Part shown: one piece after another, positions 26,001 to 32,423 of the stretch
How positions within the stretch are numbered: the first letter of the stretch is position 1
Layout of the letters: the number at the start of each line of letters is the position of its first letter
NCBI GenBank assembly: GCA_905235515.1
Contig: CAJOLV010000014.1
Span: 1-32,423, forward strand
Direction of reading: 5' to 3'
From: an uncultured Bacilli bacterium
Lineage (GTDB): Bacteria > Bacillota_I > Bacilli_A > RFN20 > CAG-826
Length of the DNA stretch: 32,423 nt
Made by a program: the position numbers and the translations under genes
The notes under the pieces: generated by a model
The model's database searches: none
What the model was told of the DNA's origin: nothing
The model's input: the letters and a program-made list of their open reading frames with translations, nothing else

Positions 26001-28604
26001 ATGCGAAAAATAACAATTATCGATGGCAATTCATTGCTCTTTAGAGCGTATTACGCAACTGCATATCCTGGCGTGGAGATTATGCGTAGCCAAGATGGCA
26101 CTCCTACTAACGCTATCTTTGCTTTTAGTAACATGATTAATAAGATTCTTTCTGATGTTAAAGAAGGCGACGCCATTATGGTGGCCTTTGATACTGGAAA
26201 GCCTTCTTTTAGAAAAAAAGAATTAGAAACTTATAAAGCGAATAGAAAACCGGCTCCTGAGGATTTAGTAACACAATTCCCAATTTCTCGTGATTTTTTA
26301 AAAGCTTTAGGTATTTTTCAATTCGAAGAAGAAGGATTTGAAGGTGATGATATCGCTGGTAGCGTCGCAAAATTAGCGGAAAAAGAGGGGTTTGAAGTTC
26401 ACTTATATACATCCGATAGAGACTTCCTCCAATTAGTGGACCCTAATATCTATGTCCACATTATTAAAAGAGGCCTTTCTGATGTCGCGATTATGACACC
26501 AGAAAAAGTCGTTGAAGAATGGGGATTTGAACCGCTCAAGATTATTGATTATAAAGGTTTAAGAGGAGATTCTAGTGATAACCTACCAGGTATACCAGGA
26601 ATCGGTGAAAAAACCGCGGTTAAATTAATTCAAGAATATGGGAGTTTTGATAATATTGTCGCTAACGCTAGTAATATTACCGGTAAAGTTGGTGATGCTA
26701 TCAAAAATAACGCTGAAATCGGTCGAGTCTCTCGTGATTTAGCAATTATTCTTACTGATTTGGACTTACCATTTACTACTGAAGACCTTGTTTATACTGG
26801 TTATGACTTTAAGGAAATCAATGATTTCTGCCAAAAATATGGTTTAAAACAATTTATCAGCAAAGTTAGTCCAAAATGGAAAAAGAAAGATGTCACTTCT
26901 TTAGAGGATTTTAAACCAGAAGTCATTAATTCATTAAAAGAGATTAATATTCCTAACGAAATTGGTTTTGCAGTTGATTTTAGTGATGATGACTACACTA
27001 ACGCTGATATCTATGGTGTCGCATTTGAAATTAATAATCGCCACTATTACATTCATCTTGGAGATTTAAAAAATGATGAGTTCGCTTTAAGGGTTTTAAA
27101 AGATAAAAATATCAAAAAATATTGTTATGATTTCAAGGCTATTAAAGTTGGTTTAGCCTTCCAAGGCATTGAAATTGAAGGTTGCGTATTTGATTTATTA
27201 ATCGCTTCATATTTACTCGATTCTTCAATTAAGAGTAATCCTGATATCGTCATGAATTTATTTGGAGCGGACCTCTCTAGTAATGAAGATGAGTCGATGT
27301 CATTATTTACATCAGAAAAAGTCGAAAGAACTGCAAAAATCGCTTATTTTGCGAAGAATTTAGCAAAAAAGGTCTATAAAAATTTAGAGGAAGTAAGCGC
27401 TGATACTTTATATGAGAATCTTGAAATTCCTCTAATTAGCACTCTTGCCGAGATGGAAATTGAAGGCTTCCCACTAGATTGGAAAACATTAGAATCCTTT
27501 GGCGTGGAGTTTAAAAAGAATATTGATACATTAAGTGAAGAAATCTATGAACTAGCAGGAGAAAAATTTAATATTGCGAGCCCTAAACAATTAGGAGAAA
27601 TTCTCTTCGATAAATTGCAACTAAAAGGTAACCGCAAAGGCTCAACATCATTTGATTATTTAAAAGAATTAATTGATGAACATCCTATTATTCCAAAGGT
27701 TTTAGAATATCGTAAATATGCGAAATTATTATCCACCTATGTTGATGGGATGAAAGTTCATATTCATAAAGATGGAAAGATTCACGCTAAATTCAATCAA
27801 GCTTTGACCACTACCGGTAGATTATCAAGTAGCGATCCAAACTTACAAAATATTTCTATTCGTGATGAAGAAGGAAAAACAATTAGAAAAGCTTTCTATT
27901 ATCCAAATCATGAATATGAGATTCTTTCTTTAGACTATTCACAGATCGAATTAAGAGTTTTAGCCTCTTTATCTAACTGTAAAGGTCTATTAGATATTTT
28001 TAGAAGTGGTGAGGATATCCACTCCGCTACCGCTAAGACTATTTTTAACCTCGATAGTGAGCCAACAGACCAGCAAAGAAGAAAAGCTAAAACTGTTAAT
28101 TTCGGTATTGTCTATGGCATCTCTGATTGGGGGTTATCAGAACAATTACAAGTATCCGTTTCAGAAGCTAAAAATATTATTTCTAGTTTCTACACTAACT
28201 TCCCAGAAATTGCCACTTTCTTCCAAGGTGTCGTTAATGAGGCATTAAAGAATGGGTATGTTTCTACATTAATGGGGAGACGCAGATATTTAAGAGAATT
28301 GCACGATTCTAATTATCAAACTCGAGAATTCGCTAAACGCGCAGCGATGAACGCACCAATCCAAGGCACTGCTGCTGATTTAATTAAAGCCGCGATGATT
28401 AAAGTAAATCAAAAGATTAAAGAAGAAGGTTTACAAAGTAAAATGGTTCTTCAAATCCACGATGAATTAATTTTCAAAGTCGTGAAGGAAGAAAAAGATA
28501 AATTATATAAATTAGTAAAAGAAACAATGGAAAATGCAATCGATTTATCAATTCCATTAGAAGTAGATGGAGGATTTGGCCTCGATTGGTATAGTGCCAA
28601 ATAG
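26001..28604 (+). CDS. polA: DNA polymerase I
   Basis: Fills gaps and removes RNA primers in Okazaki fragments. The track start at 25938 is too early; ATG 26001 has GGAGG 9 nt upstream and begins MRKITIIDGNSLLFRAYYA, the normal start of the 5' nuclease domain, giving 867 aa. The 5' nuclease domain (1 to about 290) has EGFEGDDIAG, TSDRDFLQL and GDSSDNLPGIPGIGEKTA. The middle domain lacks the DxE motif of the proofreading exonuclease (AVDFSDDDY instead), as in Bacillus. The polymerase domain has motif A LDYSQIELR (about 644), motif B KAKTVNFGIVYG (about 694) and motif C QIHDEL (about 820). Confidence 0.98.
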   Translation: MRKITIIDGNSLLFRAYYATAYPGVEIMRSQDGTPTNAIFAFSNMINKILSDVKEGDAIMVAFDTGKPSFRKKELETYKANRKPAPEDLVTQFPISRDFLKALGIFQFEEEGFEGDDIAGSVAKLAEKEGFEVHLYTSDRDFLQLVDPNIYVHIIKRGLSDVAIMTPEKVVEEWGFEPLKIIDYKGLRGDSSDNLPGIPGIGEKTAVKLIQEYGSFDNIVANASNITGKVGDAIKNNAEIGRVSRDLAIILTDLDLPFTTEDLVYTGYDFKEINDFCQKYGLKQFISKVSPKWKKKDVTSLEDFKPEVINSLKEINIPNEIGFAVDFSDDDYTNADIYGVAFEINNRHYYIHLGDLKNDEFALRVLKDKNIKKYCYDFKAIKVGLAFQGIEIEGCVFDLLIASYLLDSSIKSNPDIVMNLFGADLSSNEDESMSLFTSEKVERTAKIAYFAKNLAKKVYKNLEEVSADTLYENLEIPLISTLAEMEIEGFPLDWKTLESFGVEFKKNIDTLSEEIYELAGEKFNIASPKQLGEILFDKLQLKGNRKGSTSFDYLKELIDEHPIIPKVLEYRKYAKLLSTYVDGMKVHIHKDGKIHAKFNQALTTTGRLSSSDPNLQNISIRDEEGKTIRKAFYYPNHEYEILSLDYSQIELRVLASLSNCKGLLDIFRSGEDIHSATAKTIFNLDSEPTDQQRRKAKTVNFGIVYGISDWGLSEQLQVSVSEAKNIISSFYTNFPEIATFFQGVVNEALKNGYVSTLMGRRRYLRELHDSNYQTREFAKRAAMNAPIQGTAADLIKAAMIKVNQKIKEEGLQSKMVLQIHDELIFKVVKEEKDKLYKLVKETMENAIDLSIPLEVDGGFGLDWYSAK

Positions 28605-28608
28605 ATTT

Positions 28609-30015
28609 ATGCCTGAATTACCAGAAGTTGAAACTGTTAAAAACGTTCTTATTCCAATAGTGAGAAATCAAACTATTAATAGAATAGATGTTTTAAGAAT
28701 GTCCACTATTCATGGAGATATTAAAGAATTTGTTTCAACTTTAACTAATAAAACATTTTTAGACGTCACTCGTATCGGTAAATTTTTAATATTCCACCTT
28801 AGCGATGATGTTGTCATCATCTCTCATTTAAGAATGGAAGGAAAATATTATGAACTATTAGAAGATGAGTCAAACACTAAATATTCTCGAGTTGTCATTC
28901 ATTTAAAGAATGGTCATAAACTTTGTTACGATGATTCTCGTTGTTTCGGGATGATGAAATTATCCACCGAAAAAGAATATCGTCATGTCAAAGATATCGC
29001 TCAATTAGGGCCAGAACCATTTGATATTAAAGATGTGAAATATCTTTTGGATAGGTGCAAAAAATCATCATTGCCAATTAAATCCACATTATTAGATCAA
29101 ACATTAATGACTGGTTTAGGTAACATTTACGCTGATGAAGTCTTATTTGCTAGTAAGATTCATCCACTTACACCCGCTAATAAAATTACAAAGGCCGAAT
29201 GGACCACTATTATAAATAACGCGCAAAGAATATTGCATGAAGCTATTCATGCCGGTGGTTCCACCATCAAGAGTTATCACCCAGGAAAAGATATCGATGG
29301 TAATTTCCAAAGCGCTTTATTGGCCTATGGCCATAAAGGTGAGCGTTGTCCGACCTGTGGAATGATTATGCGCTTTATCAAAGTGGGCGGTAGAGGCACA
29401 ACTTATTGTCCAAAATGTCAAAGACAAAAAGCTGAGAAACTCTCGATTGCTATTTATGGAAGAATTGCCTCAGGTAAATCAACAGTGTTAGAAACATTTA
29501 AAGAAAATGGTTACTACACTATTTCATCTGATGATATTGTCTCTAACTTATATAAGAAAAAAGAAGTAGTTGAACAGATTAATAACGCATTTAATCTCGC
29601 TTTTAAAGATGAGGCAGATAAACAAACCTTAAGAGAATTAATTAGAAAAGATGATAAGAATCGTAAAAAGTTAGAAAAGATTGTCCATCCTTGGGTAAAG
29701 AAGGAAATTGTTAATACAATTAAAACTATTAAGGCTCGTATGATTGTGGTTGAAGTTCCACTTCTATATGAATCTAAGATGGATAATTTGTTTGATGTTG
29801 TTATCGCAGTGGATGTATCTAGTGAAAAACAAATTAAATTCTTGACAAATCGTAATCCAGAAACCGCAAAATCTCTTTTAGAGATTAACGCTAATCATCA
29901 ATTTGCTAAAAATAAAGAAAAAGCCGACTATCTATTGGTCAATGATGCCGGCTTAGATAAATTAAAGAATAAGACTCAAAAAATTATTAATGAGCTACAA
30001 TGTCGCCTAGATTAA
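28609..30015 (+). CDS. mutM-coaE: Fusion of formamidopyrimidine-DNA glycosylase (MutM) and dephospho-CoA kinase (CoaE)
   Basis: A single 468-aa frame encodes two enzymes. Residues 1-273 are MutM, which removes 8-oxoguanine: the catalytic Pro2-Glu3 (MPELPEVE) fixes the start at 28609 and not 28567; K58, the LLDQTLMTGLGNIYADEVLF H2TH helix and the zinc finger C247/C250, C267/C270 are intact. After a linker of about seven residues (QRQKAEK) comes CoaE (about 278-468), the last step of coenzyme A synthesis: P-loop YGRIASGKST (G284-S291), SSDDIVSNLY, VVEVPLLYES and a normal C-terminal part. The reading frame is continuous at the junction. It starts four bases after the polA stop and its 3' end overlaps dnaI by 29 bp, tail to tail. 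Confidence 0.95.
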   Translation: MPELPEVETVKNVLIPIVRNQTINRIDVLRMSTIHGDIKEFVSTLTNKTFLDVTRIGKFLIFHLSDDVVIISHLRMEGKYYELLEDESNTKYSRVVIHLKNGHKLCYDDSRCFGMMKLSTEKEYRHVKDIAQLGPEPFDIKDVKYLLDRCKKSSLPIKSTLLDQTLMTGLGNIYADEVLFASKIHPLTPANKITKAEWTTIINNAQRILHEAIHAGGSTIKSYHPGKDIDGNFQSALLAYGHKGERCPTCGMIMRFIKVGGRGTTYCPKCQRQKAEKLSIAIYGRIASGKSTVLETFKENGYYTISSDDIVSNLYKKKEVVEQINNAFNLAFKDEADKQTLRELIRKDDKNRKKLEKIVHPWVKKEIVNTIKTIKARMIVVEVPLLYESKMDNLFDVVIAVDVSSEKQIKFLTNRNPETAKSLLEINANHQFAKNKEKADYLLVNDAGLDKLKNKTQKIINELQCRLD

Positions 30016-30877
30016 TTTCTTTACCGGCGACATTTTTAATAATTGAACCGATTTGTTTGGCTCTAATTTCACCTGCTTTACTAGTGCTATATAAGGTCAC
30101 TAATTCATTAACCGTAAAATCACTGGTGATAATTGTGAATAATTTTTTGCTCGCCCTAGTCGAGAGAATTGGGAAGATAATCGCATCTCTAATCAAATCG
30201 GTTTTAACTTCGTTACCAAAGTCATCTAAGACTAAAACTGGAACAGTGCAATATCTATCGAGTTCTCTTTTAAATCTCTCTTTATCTTTAAAATAAAGAT
30301 CAGTTAATTCTGCGATACGTCTATTTGCGTTTGCAAAGATGATTGGTCCTTGTTTATTTTTCGCGATATCAACCGCAATCGCGGTGACCGCAAAGCTTTT
30401 ACCAGTATTAGCCATACCTGTAACATATATCCAATTATTAATTTTATGTCTCTTAAATTGAATATATTTATCGATAATCTCTAACTTTGGTTGATTGTCT
30501 TCAACATCTTTAAATGTGACATCGAGCAAGTCGCTATCAAAATCTCTAATCAAAAATTGATTTTGGAATTCCACTCTTTGGAGGAATTTTTTACACGGGG
30601 AGATTTCTCTATCTACATAGCCATTACGATAAGTCACTCTAGTGCAGAACAAAGGATTCTCTTTTTGACATTTATCAACACCAGGACATTTATCGCAATA
30701 TTTTAAATCCATCACAAAGTCATAGACTTTGGCGATGTTATCTCTGATTTGTTGATCAGTGAGACCTAATTTTGCTAGATATCTAATTGCCTGTGGGCAA
30801 GTTAAGTATTCGCGATACATTTCCTCTAAAATGTCATCACTACTTGTAACGTTTAAGTCGACTTTAATTTTCTCCAT
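29987..30877 (-). CDS. dnaI: Primosomal helicase loader DnaI
   Basis: An AAA+ ATPase of 296 aa that loads the replicative helicase onto DNA at initiation and restart. The N-terminal domain carries a probable zinc site (YCDKCPGVDKC, then C78: C61, C64, C70, C78), as in Bacillus DnaI, where it binds the helicase. The ATPase part has Walker A GMANTGKS (G154-S161), Walker B VLVLDDFG (D218, D219) and sensor-1 TIITSDF. A GGAGGG site lies in the end of dnaB, whose coding region overlaps this one by 14 nt. The 3' end overlaps the convergent mutM-coaE gene. Confidence 0.96.
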   Translation of the reverse strand: MEKIKVDLNVTSSDDILEEMYREYLTCPQAIRYLAKLGLTDQQIRDNIAKVYDFVMDLKYCDKCPGVDKCQKENPLFCTRVTYRNGYVDREISPCKKFLQRVEFQNQFLIRDFDSDLLDVTFKDVEDNQPKLEIIDKYIQFKRHKINNWIYVTGMANTGKSFAVTAIAVDIAKNKQGPIIFANANRRIAELTDLYFKDKERFKRELDRYCTVPVLVLDDFGNEVKTDLIRDAIIFPILSTRASKKLFTIITSDFTVNELVTLYSTSKAGEIRAKQIGSIIKNVAGKEINLGDIVAH

Positions 30878-32144
30878 TGTTGTCGCCCTCCTCTAATTGT
30901 CTAAGCAAATCTTCTTTATTCAAAATTCTCTTTGGCTCTTCTTTTGTTTCTTCCACAACTGGTAATTCTTCTTGAGACTGTTCATATGTTGGTTTTTTCC
31001 TCTTTGAGGAAACTTTCTTCAAATAGTTCATTGCATCGATTGCGGTTGTAATTCCTTCTCGAGCAACACTACCAGCGATTTTTTCCACGAATGGCTTAGA
31101 TAAGACATTGTCGTTTACTGTGAGAACATAATCTATGATTGCGTTGATAACACTATTTGGTAAACGGAATTTACTTGAGATTGTATTCACTATCATTAAG
31201 TCGCTGATAGATGGTTGTGAACCATTTTGTAAGATGGAAAGATAACGTTTAGGATTAGCTTGCTCCATGATGTTAATCTTTCTAGCTAAATCGGTATTAC
31301 CCGCCATTTCACCATTCAATTTGTTTTTGGCGTGATTTGTTAAAGAGCGATAATTGATTTCTTCCGCAAAGATTTTGGTTATTTGTTCAAAATCTAAACG
31401 ATGATTTTTATCCGCTAACGGGTTGTAATTATTGCGAACTGTATTAGCTGCACTTTCTTCACTCACTCCATACAGAGTAGCGAGTCTTTCAACTTCTTTC
31501 ATATCCTTCTTAGAGAAGGCTTCGGCTTTAATTTGCGATATTTCACTTAATGTTTTGAAGAATAATTCATAGGAGAATCCACTATTGAGCTTAGCGCTTT
31601 GTCTAGTGACAATATTACTATCTCCATTTTCCATTGCCTTTACAAAGGCAGGGTTATCGAAGTCCGGAGAGAACACTTCAATAAATGAGGCTGTGATTTC
31701 TTTCCCTTCGGGACGATTTTTAATTGTGTAAAGAGTTTTAAGTTTATTAGCCTCTGTTTCTCCTATACTTTGTATCAACATTCCATAAAGCAATGTGTTA
31801 TCGAAGAATAATTTAGGAGTCTTTGGAGCGTATAACTCATATTGATAAAGTTTCAAACCCTTTAAATCAGAGACAAATGTCTTTAATAGACCAATGGCTT
31901 CTAAATTCTTTCTCGCATCAACGAACTCACTAGCATTCATCATTGTGCGGTTAAAGAGTATTTCGTGGCTCACTATTGGATTGATTTTTTGATTATCGTA
32001 TTCCGATAGTAAGGTGAAGTATAAACTCACTGCTTTATAACCGATGATTGGTTGATACAAGTTTGTTAATGTCAAACGATCATAATCGGCGATTAATGAG
32101 TTAACACTTACTTCGAGATAGTCTTTTTCTTTTAATATCAGCAT
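30864..32144 (-). CDS. dnaB: Replication initiation protein DnaB (DnaB/DnaD family)
   Basis: In Firmicutes this DnaB is not a helicase; it helps DnaI load the replicative helicase and attaches the origin to the membrane. The 426-aa protein starts with the family winged-helix region (YLEVSVNSLIADYD, LTNLYQPIIGYKAVSLYFTL). The C-terminal part carries the DnaB/DnaD helical domain, with PNSVINAIIDYVLTVNDN (about 333-352) resembling the YxxxIxxxW-type region, and then a charged tail. It forms an operon with dnaI, overlapping it by 14 nt. A good promoter and five DnaA boxes lie upstream. Confidence 0.93.
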   Translation of the reverse strand: MLILKEKDYLEVSVNSLIADYDRLTLTNLYQPIIGYKAVSLYFTLLSEYDNQKINPIVSHEILFNRTMMNASEFVDARKNLEAIGLLKTFVSDLKGLKLYQYELYAPKTPKLFFDNTLLYGMLIQSIGETEANKLKTLYTIKNRPEGKEITASFIEVFSPDFDNPAFVKAMENGDSNIVTRQSAKLNSGFSYELFFKTLSEISQIKAEAFSKKDMKEVERLATLYGVSEESAANTVRNNYNPLADKNHRLDFEQITKIFAEEINYRSLTNHAKNKLNGEMAGNTDLARKINIMEQANPKRYLSILQNGSQPSISDLMIVNTISSKFRLPNSVINAIIDYVLTVNDNVLSKPFVEKIAGSVAREGITTAIDAMNYLKKVSSKRKKPTYEQSQEELPVVEETKEEPKRILNKEDLLRQLEEGDNNGEN

Positions 32145-32167: not shown

Positions 32168-32196
32168 ATTATCTTAATAATTCCACTACTTTTCAA
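32168..32196 (-). promoter_or_regulatory. dnaB-dnaI promoter
   Basis: On the minus strand TTGAAA (32191-32196), 17 nt, GATAAT (32168-32173). The transcript would start near 32160, about 16 nt before the dnaB ATG, which leaves room for the AAGGGA ribosome site. Confidence 0.78.
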
Positions 32197-32219: not shown

Positions 32220-32321
32220 TGGGGATAATTTGTCCACATCAGTAAAAATTCAATTTATATATAAATTAACTTCTTATCCACAATAAATAAGGAAGTTTTC
32301 CACATTAAAATTTGTGGATAA
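32220..32321. promoter_or_regulatory. Cluster of five DnaA boxes upstream of dnaB-dnaI
   Basis: Two exact boxes TTATCCACA: 32274-32282 (plus) and 32313-32321 (minus). Three boxes with one mismatch: TTGTCCACA 32230-32238 (plus), TTTTCCACA 32296-32304 (plus), and TTATCCCCA on the minus strand at 32220-32228. An AT-rich palindrome, AATTTATATATAAATT (32252-32267), lies within. The cluster starts 24 nt upstream of the dnaB -35. DnaA binding is likely; whether it acts as a transcription control, a titration site or an origin is not shown. Confidence 0.75.
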
Positions 32322-32324
32322 ATA

Positions 32325-32423
32325 TTATGCGAAACGCATGAAATTAATTTCATAATTACCCCAACCCATGACCTTTCTGGTTTTGCCTAGAATATTAGCT
32401 AAATTGATGAAAATACATGAAGA
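32325..32423 (-). CDS. Partial CDS at window edge (C-terminal 32 aa)
   Basis: An open frame enters from the right edge and ends in TAA at 32325. The visible end reads INLANILGKTRKVMGWGNY followed by EINFMRFA. I do not recognise the family. Its composition looks protein-like, and the direction matches dnaB. In Bacillus nrdR precedes dnaB, but this tail cannot be assigned to it. The exact DnaA box at 32313-32321 starts right after the stop. Confidence 0.5.
   Translation of the reverse strand, partial: SSCIFINLANILGKTRKVMGWGNYEINFMRFA

Follow-up and report, generated by a model that had tools for sequence, protein, structure and literature searches.

The DnaA-box cluster upstream of dnaB in this uncultured member of the Bacilli is best read, from the arrangement of its sequence, as a region through which DnaA controls the dnaB-dnaI operon, probably by upstream activation; we put the probability of this reading at roughly 0.75. 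The window, meaning the whole stretch of 32,423 nucleotides that was analysed, is the end of one contig (C14) of a 1.2-Mb genome assembled in 49 contigs, and its relevant features are these:

32220-32228, minus strand: DnaA box with one mismatch, TTATCCCCA
32230-32238, plus strand: DnaA box with one mismatch, TTGTCCACA
32274-32282, plus strand: exact DnaA box, TTATCCACA, extra to both pairs
32296-32304, plus strand: DnaA box with one mismatch, TTTTCCACA
32313-32321, minus strand: exact DnaA box, TTATCCACA
32220-32238: proximal inverted pair of DnaA boxes, on the plus strand TGGGGATAA, 1 bp, TTGTCCACA
32296-32321: distal inverted pair of DnaA boxes, on the pfkA side, TTTTCCACA, 8 bp, TGTGGATAA
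32252-32267: AT-rich palindrome, AATTTATATATAAATT, separated from the proximal pair by 13 bp
32168-32196, minus strand: predicted dnaB promoter TTGAAA-17-GATAAT, conserved in relatives
30864-32144, minus strand: dnaB, helicase-loading/DNA-remodelling initiation protein (DnaB_2; DnaD/DnaB family)
29987-30877, minus strand: dnaI, helicase loader AAA+ ATPase, overlapping the end of dnaB by 14 bp
32317-32328: 12-bp target duplication GATAAATATTAT of an insertion sequence, with the same 12 bp upstream of pfkA on contig C40
32329-32423: end of the insertion sequence, cut off by the contig end; its terminal repeat is GCGAAACGCATGAAA

The five boxes reported in the earlier note (two exact, three with one mismatch, at 32220-32321) are all present, as is the AT-rich palindrome beside them. 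Its description of boxes in both orientations is true and can be refined to two inverted pairs plus one exact box (32274-32282) that is not conserved in relatives, the order of the layout being distal inverted pair, palindrome, proximal inverted pair and then the dnaB promoter. That such a cluster is rare by chance was borne out: the 1.2-Mb genome holds 27 exact boxes and 563 that are exact or have one mismatch, from which a Poisson scan estimate gives about 1.2e-4 clusters of five within 102 bp per genome, and about 0.03 pairs of exact boxes within 48 bp. The two exact boxes of the cluster are 39 bp apart, by far the closest among the genome's 27 listed exact boxes. Consensus DnaA boxes hence adjoin the dnaB promoter beyond chance.

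Both downstream genes show homology to Bacilli DnaB and DnaI, as a helicase-loader operon should. For DnaB, the NCBIfam DnaB model was the best match yet fell below its curated cut-off (E 1.7e-41), and a profile comparison matched the solved DnaB structure 29km with E 4.5e-69; for DnaI, the NCBIfam DnaI model was likewise the best match yet below its curated cut-off (E 1.1e-27), and the solved DnaI structure 4m4w was matched with E 1.8e-18. The two genes probably form an operon. Elsewhere in the window, a single frame on the plus strand (28567-30015, 482 aa), downstream of polA, fuses MutM (formamidopyrimidine-DNA glycosylase) with CoaE (dephospho-CoA kinase).

The earlier note had proposed scanning related genomes for conserved boxes and had named a lack of conservation as grounds for refutation; in this comparison, run mostly on MAGs, the boxes withstood that test. 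The dnaB gene was found in 54 of 58 relatives plus 15 named MAGs, many of them from rumen and gut, and the same box layout precedes it in about 25 relatives, most of them at 40-59% DnaB identity, while the sequences flanking the layout do not align. The position of the distal pair is kept in about 20 relatives, and further members of the family also carry the layout. It was absent from all 30 dnaB upstream regions taken from other Bacilli families, each with at most one near-match within about 260 bp, and from the sampled members of other families in the same order; within the family itself there are exceptions with a dnaB gene lacking boxes (e.g., G012 and G029). When the inverted-pair pattern TTWTCCACA-N6-12-TGTGGAWAA was sought in 58 genomes, it occurred at 25 places, of which 15 were dnaA/oriC, nine were pfkA-dnaB and one lay in a coding frame, where it is a chance occurrence; a reversed control pattern occurred at three.

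The proximal box keeps a fixed spacing to the dnaB promoter. The near-consensus promoter noted earlier is real, with TTGAAA at 32196-32191 and GATAAT at 32173-32168 on the minus strand separated by a 17-nt spacer, and the predicted start lies 17 nt before the ATG. In 19 of 21 genomes the centre of the proximal box falls at -73/-74 relative to the predicted start of dnaB, as against at most 6 of 21 in a shuffled-sequence control, a statistic that is overstated to the extent that the relatives share ancestry and are not independent, and that the start sites are predicted. In the same 21 genomes the distance from predicted start to ATG ranges from 4 to 23 nt, and the spacing between box and start is unaffected. 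The genome comparisons thus show a layout fixed across much of one family, an inverted pair nearly exclusive to oriC and this locus, and a proximal box locked to the predicted promoter. The same spacing bears on the suggestion, also made in the earlier note, that the cluster soaks up DnaA as a reservoir and so tunes the timing of initiation, its place before dnaB being incidental. Dense, good boxes outside oriC are what marks a titration cluster, and deletion of six such clusters in B. subtilis leads to early initiation (PMC5295017). However, boxes that serve titration need not keep a set distance from the dnaB promoter, nor stay next to dnaB in about 25 genomes, and two pairs are few for the purpose. 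We consider this explanation distinctly unlikely, the promoter-locked spacing being left unexplained by it, and suggest that titration may be a by-product.

DnaA is well known to act as a transcription factor in many bacteria (PMC8203912, PMC4447404), and the proposal that it controls the helicase-loading genes here is strongly supported, as far as sequence can speak, by the conserved architecture, the near-exclusivity of the pair genome-wide and the promoter-locked spacing. We propose that DnaA would bind both inverted pairs, and that the proximal complex, in a class-I-like upstream position, would contact RNA polymerase and activate dnaB-dnaI, so tying production of the helicase loader to times of abundant active DnaA. 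The distal pair would stabilise the DnaA complex across the AT-rich palindrome, and may also act on pfkA. The sign of the regulation is the least certain step: activation seems somewhat probable, and is favoured because the location of the proximal pair (about -78 to -59) suits an upstream activator, whereas repression has a slightly less than even chance. In its full form the opposite-sign variant, which we regard as possible if tentative, holds that DnaA represses dnaB-dnaI (and pfkA), the pairs bridging across a flexible palindrome to shut both promoters in a negative feedback. The separation of the two pairs by an AT-rich stretch that varies in length fits looping or bridging, a near-consensus dnaB promoter may need no activator, and the B. 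subtilis DnaA targets ywlC, vpr, trmE-noc and ywcI-sacT appear to be directly repressed (PMC4447404). Yet the boxes are clear of the -35 and -10 elements, the proximal pair occupies a position usual for an activator, and the distance between the pairs ranges from 59 to 75 bp across relatives with no helical phasing between them.

The palindrome itself is a regular part of the layout. Where it is present, its right edge nearly always lies 13-14 bp from the proximal box; the stems, often of 7-9 bp around three-base loops, exceed those of dinucleotide shuffles in length (mean 7.2 vs 4.8), and they change in concert, as in TTGTATC-AAA-GATACAA (L044), ATTTATACC-AAA-GGTATAAAT (L037) and GATTTAC-ATA-GTAAATC (L040). 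A hairpin or the site of a second regulator is possible, and no credible Rfam match to a structured RNA was found. It is also conceivable, if unlikely, that the two inverted pairs and the AT-rich hairpin form a single family-specific nucleoprotein switch that would couple replication initiation, via dnaB-dnaI, to glycolytic flux, via pfkA; the hairpin, extruded or recognised, would supply a second input. An identical 14-mer palindrome occurs at oriC and at dnaB, with a looser pattern at one further place. Beside oriC, a conserved palindrome, CATTTATNNATAAATG, lies within the -35/-10 spacer of the rpmH promoter in about six relatives (L054, L055, L057, L060, L062, L064) and resembles that at dnaB. 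An operator shared with oriC was considered and rejected; because the oriC copy sits in the rpmH spacer and is found in few relatives, the likeness may be a coincidence.

On the other side of the cluster, the divergent neighbour in relatives is either a ROK sugar kinase or pfkA, the latter with thrS-infC-rplT-like genes after it (neighbours being named from recognisable sequence, without a family search), whereas pfkA of the source genome lies on contig C40. There, its upstream flank has GATAAATATTAT beside an inverted GCGAAACGCATGAAA, and at the window edge the same 12 bp is followed by the repeat in the opposite direction. Because both the 12 bp and the oppositely directed repeat are found at the two places, we infer that an insertion sequence split dnaB from pfkA, with a 12-bp duplication that takes in part of the distal box, and that the control region was originally the divergent intergenic region between pfkA and dnaB-dnaI. 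Contig C31 ends in the same insertion sequence (C31:1-102, L004; the C40 copy is in L122), which apparently has at least two copies and whose body is absent from the binned assembly. Joint DnaA control of the divergent pfkA would be possible, since the distal pair adjoins the pfkA promoter in many relatives, with the -10 box about 29-38 bp beyond it. The same placement could be taken to mean that the cluster is a pfkA element linking glycolysis to replication, with dnaB as a passenger. G005 has kept the layout beside pfkA on another contig, with other genes separating it from dnaB, and a genetic link between glycolysis and replication is known in B. subtilis (PMC1866360), although a pfk mutation was among the non-suppressing ones in that study. 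However, the layout remains before dnaB where pfkA has moved off, with genes intervening between the two (L044), or has been replaced by the ROK kinase (L050, L027), and the tight spacing is that to the dnaB promoter, the spacing to the pfkA -10 box being looser; we therefore judge this reading very unlikely. Upstream of dnaB in G005 are zinc-ribbon membrane-protein-like genes (L084, L086).

A replication origin, secondary or relocated, had also been suggested, and the absence of dnaA-dnaN had been taken to argue against the standard oriC. That absence is true of the window and not of the genome, where the search for dnaA/dnaN and the skew switch, proposed earlier and now carried out, located a normal dnaA locus on contig C6, with the order rpmH, boxes, dnaA-dnaN-recF-gyrB-gyrA, its own DnaA boxes (genes named from recognisable sequence) and a skew minimum. 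A minus-to-plus change in GC skew marks dnaA in both the source genome and relative G030. At dnaB, by contrast, G030 shows a change from plus to minus, contrary to what an origin would give, and G013 and G028 have no sustained minus-to-plus switch there, so that, with skew judged in these three relatives, the dnaB locus has neither the dnaA-dnaN/rpmH neighbourhood nor the skew switch of an oriC. The DnaA boxes, the adjoining initiation genes and the AT-rich 14-mer palindrome that also occurs near oriC would fit a second origin. We nonetheless reject it as having next to no likelihood, because the dnaA locus with its skew switch lies elsewhere and no such switch is found at dnaB in the relatives tested. 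A scan for DnaA-trios and unwinding elements had no hit in 24 of 25 layouts, and it also misses most true oriCs. The plus-to-minus skew near dnaB in G030 (C29, around 45-50 kb, L113) is terminus-like, and in G020 and G012 dnaB and dnaA share a contig, about 0.6-0.8 Mb apart.

If control of dnaB-dnaI by DnaA is correct, the initiator would determine the supply of the very proteins needed for the following step at the origin, in a feed-forward or a feedback loop. This loop would have been kept across much of an uncultured gut and rumen family of Bacilli, in which the site pair is almost exclusive to oriC and the dnaB locus. The presence of pfkA and dnaB on one DnaA-bound region would, moreover, make the reported link between glycolysis and replication testable at a defined promoter.

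No report of DnaA control of dnaB-dnaI, or of the Bacilli helicase loader, was found in the open-access papers searched. In B. subtilis, dnaB follows nrdR in an operon and is not known to follow a DnaA-box region. Several known systems share part of the arrangement. The B. subtilis DnaA targets sda, ywlC, vpr, yyzF-yydD, trmE-noc and ywcI-sacT likewise have promoter DnaA boxes outside oriC in a member of the Bacilli, but dnaB-dnaI is not among the targets described there (PMC4447404). In Caulobacter crescentus, dnaB belongs to the DnaA regulon and, as here, predicted DnaA boxes lie upstream of a gene for the helicase step; that dnaB, however, is the replicative helicase itself, unrelated to the dnaB of Bacilli, and no paired layout is described for it (PMC8203912). 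The DnaA-box clusters (DBCs) of B. subtilis and datA of E. coli are also dense groups of boxes outside oriC, but are defined by titration or inactivation of DnaA, whereas the boxes described here are locked to a promoter. There is also a likeness to the double DnaA box of E. coli (purH, polA, DARS2), where DnaA prefers close pairs and the boxes are 2-3 bp apart, as compared with 1-2 bp in the proximal pair (PMC11317965); unlike those of E. coli, the boxes here are inverted and accompanied, about 70 bp away, by a second, wider inverted pair with 8 bp between its boxes. Within a known kind of regulation, the choice of target, the layout of two inverted pairs and a possible coupling to pfkA appear to be new.
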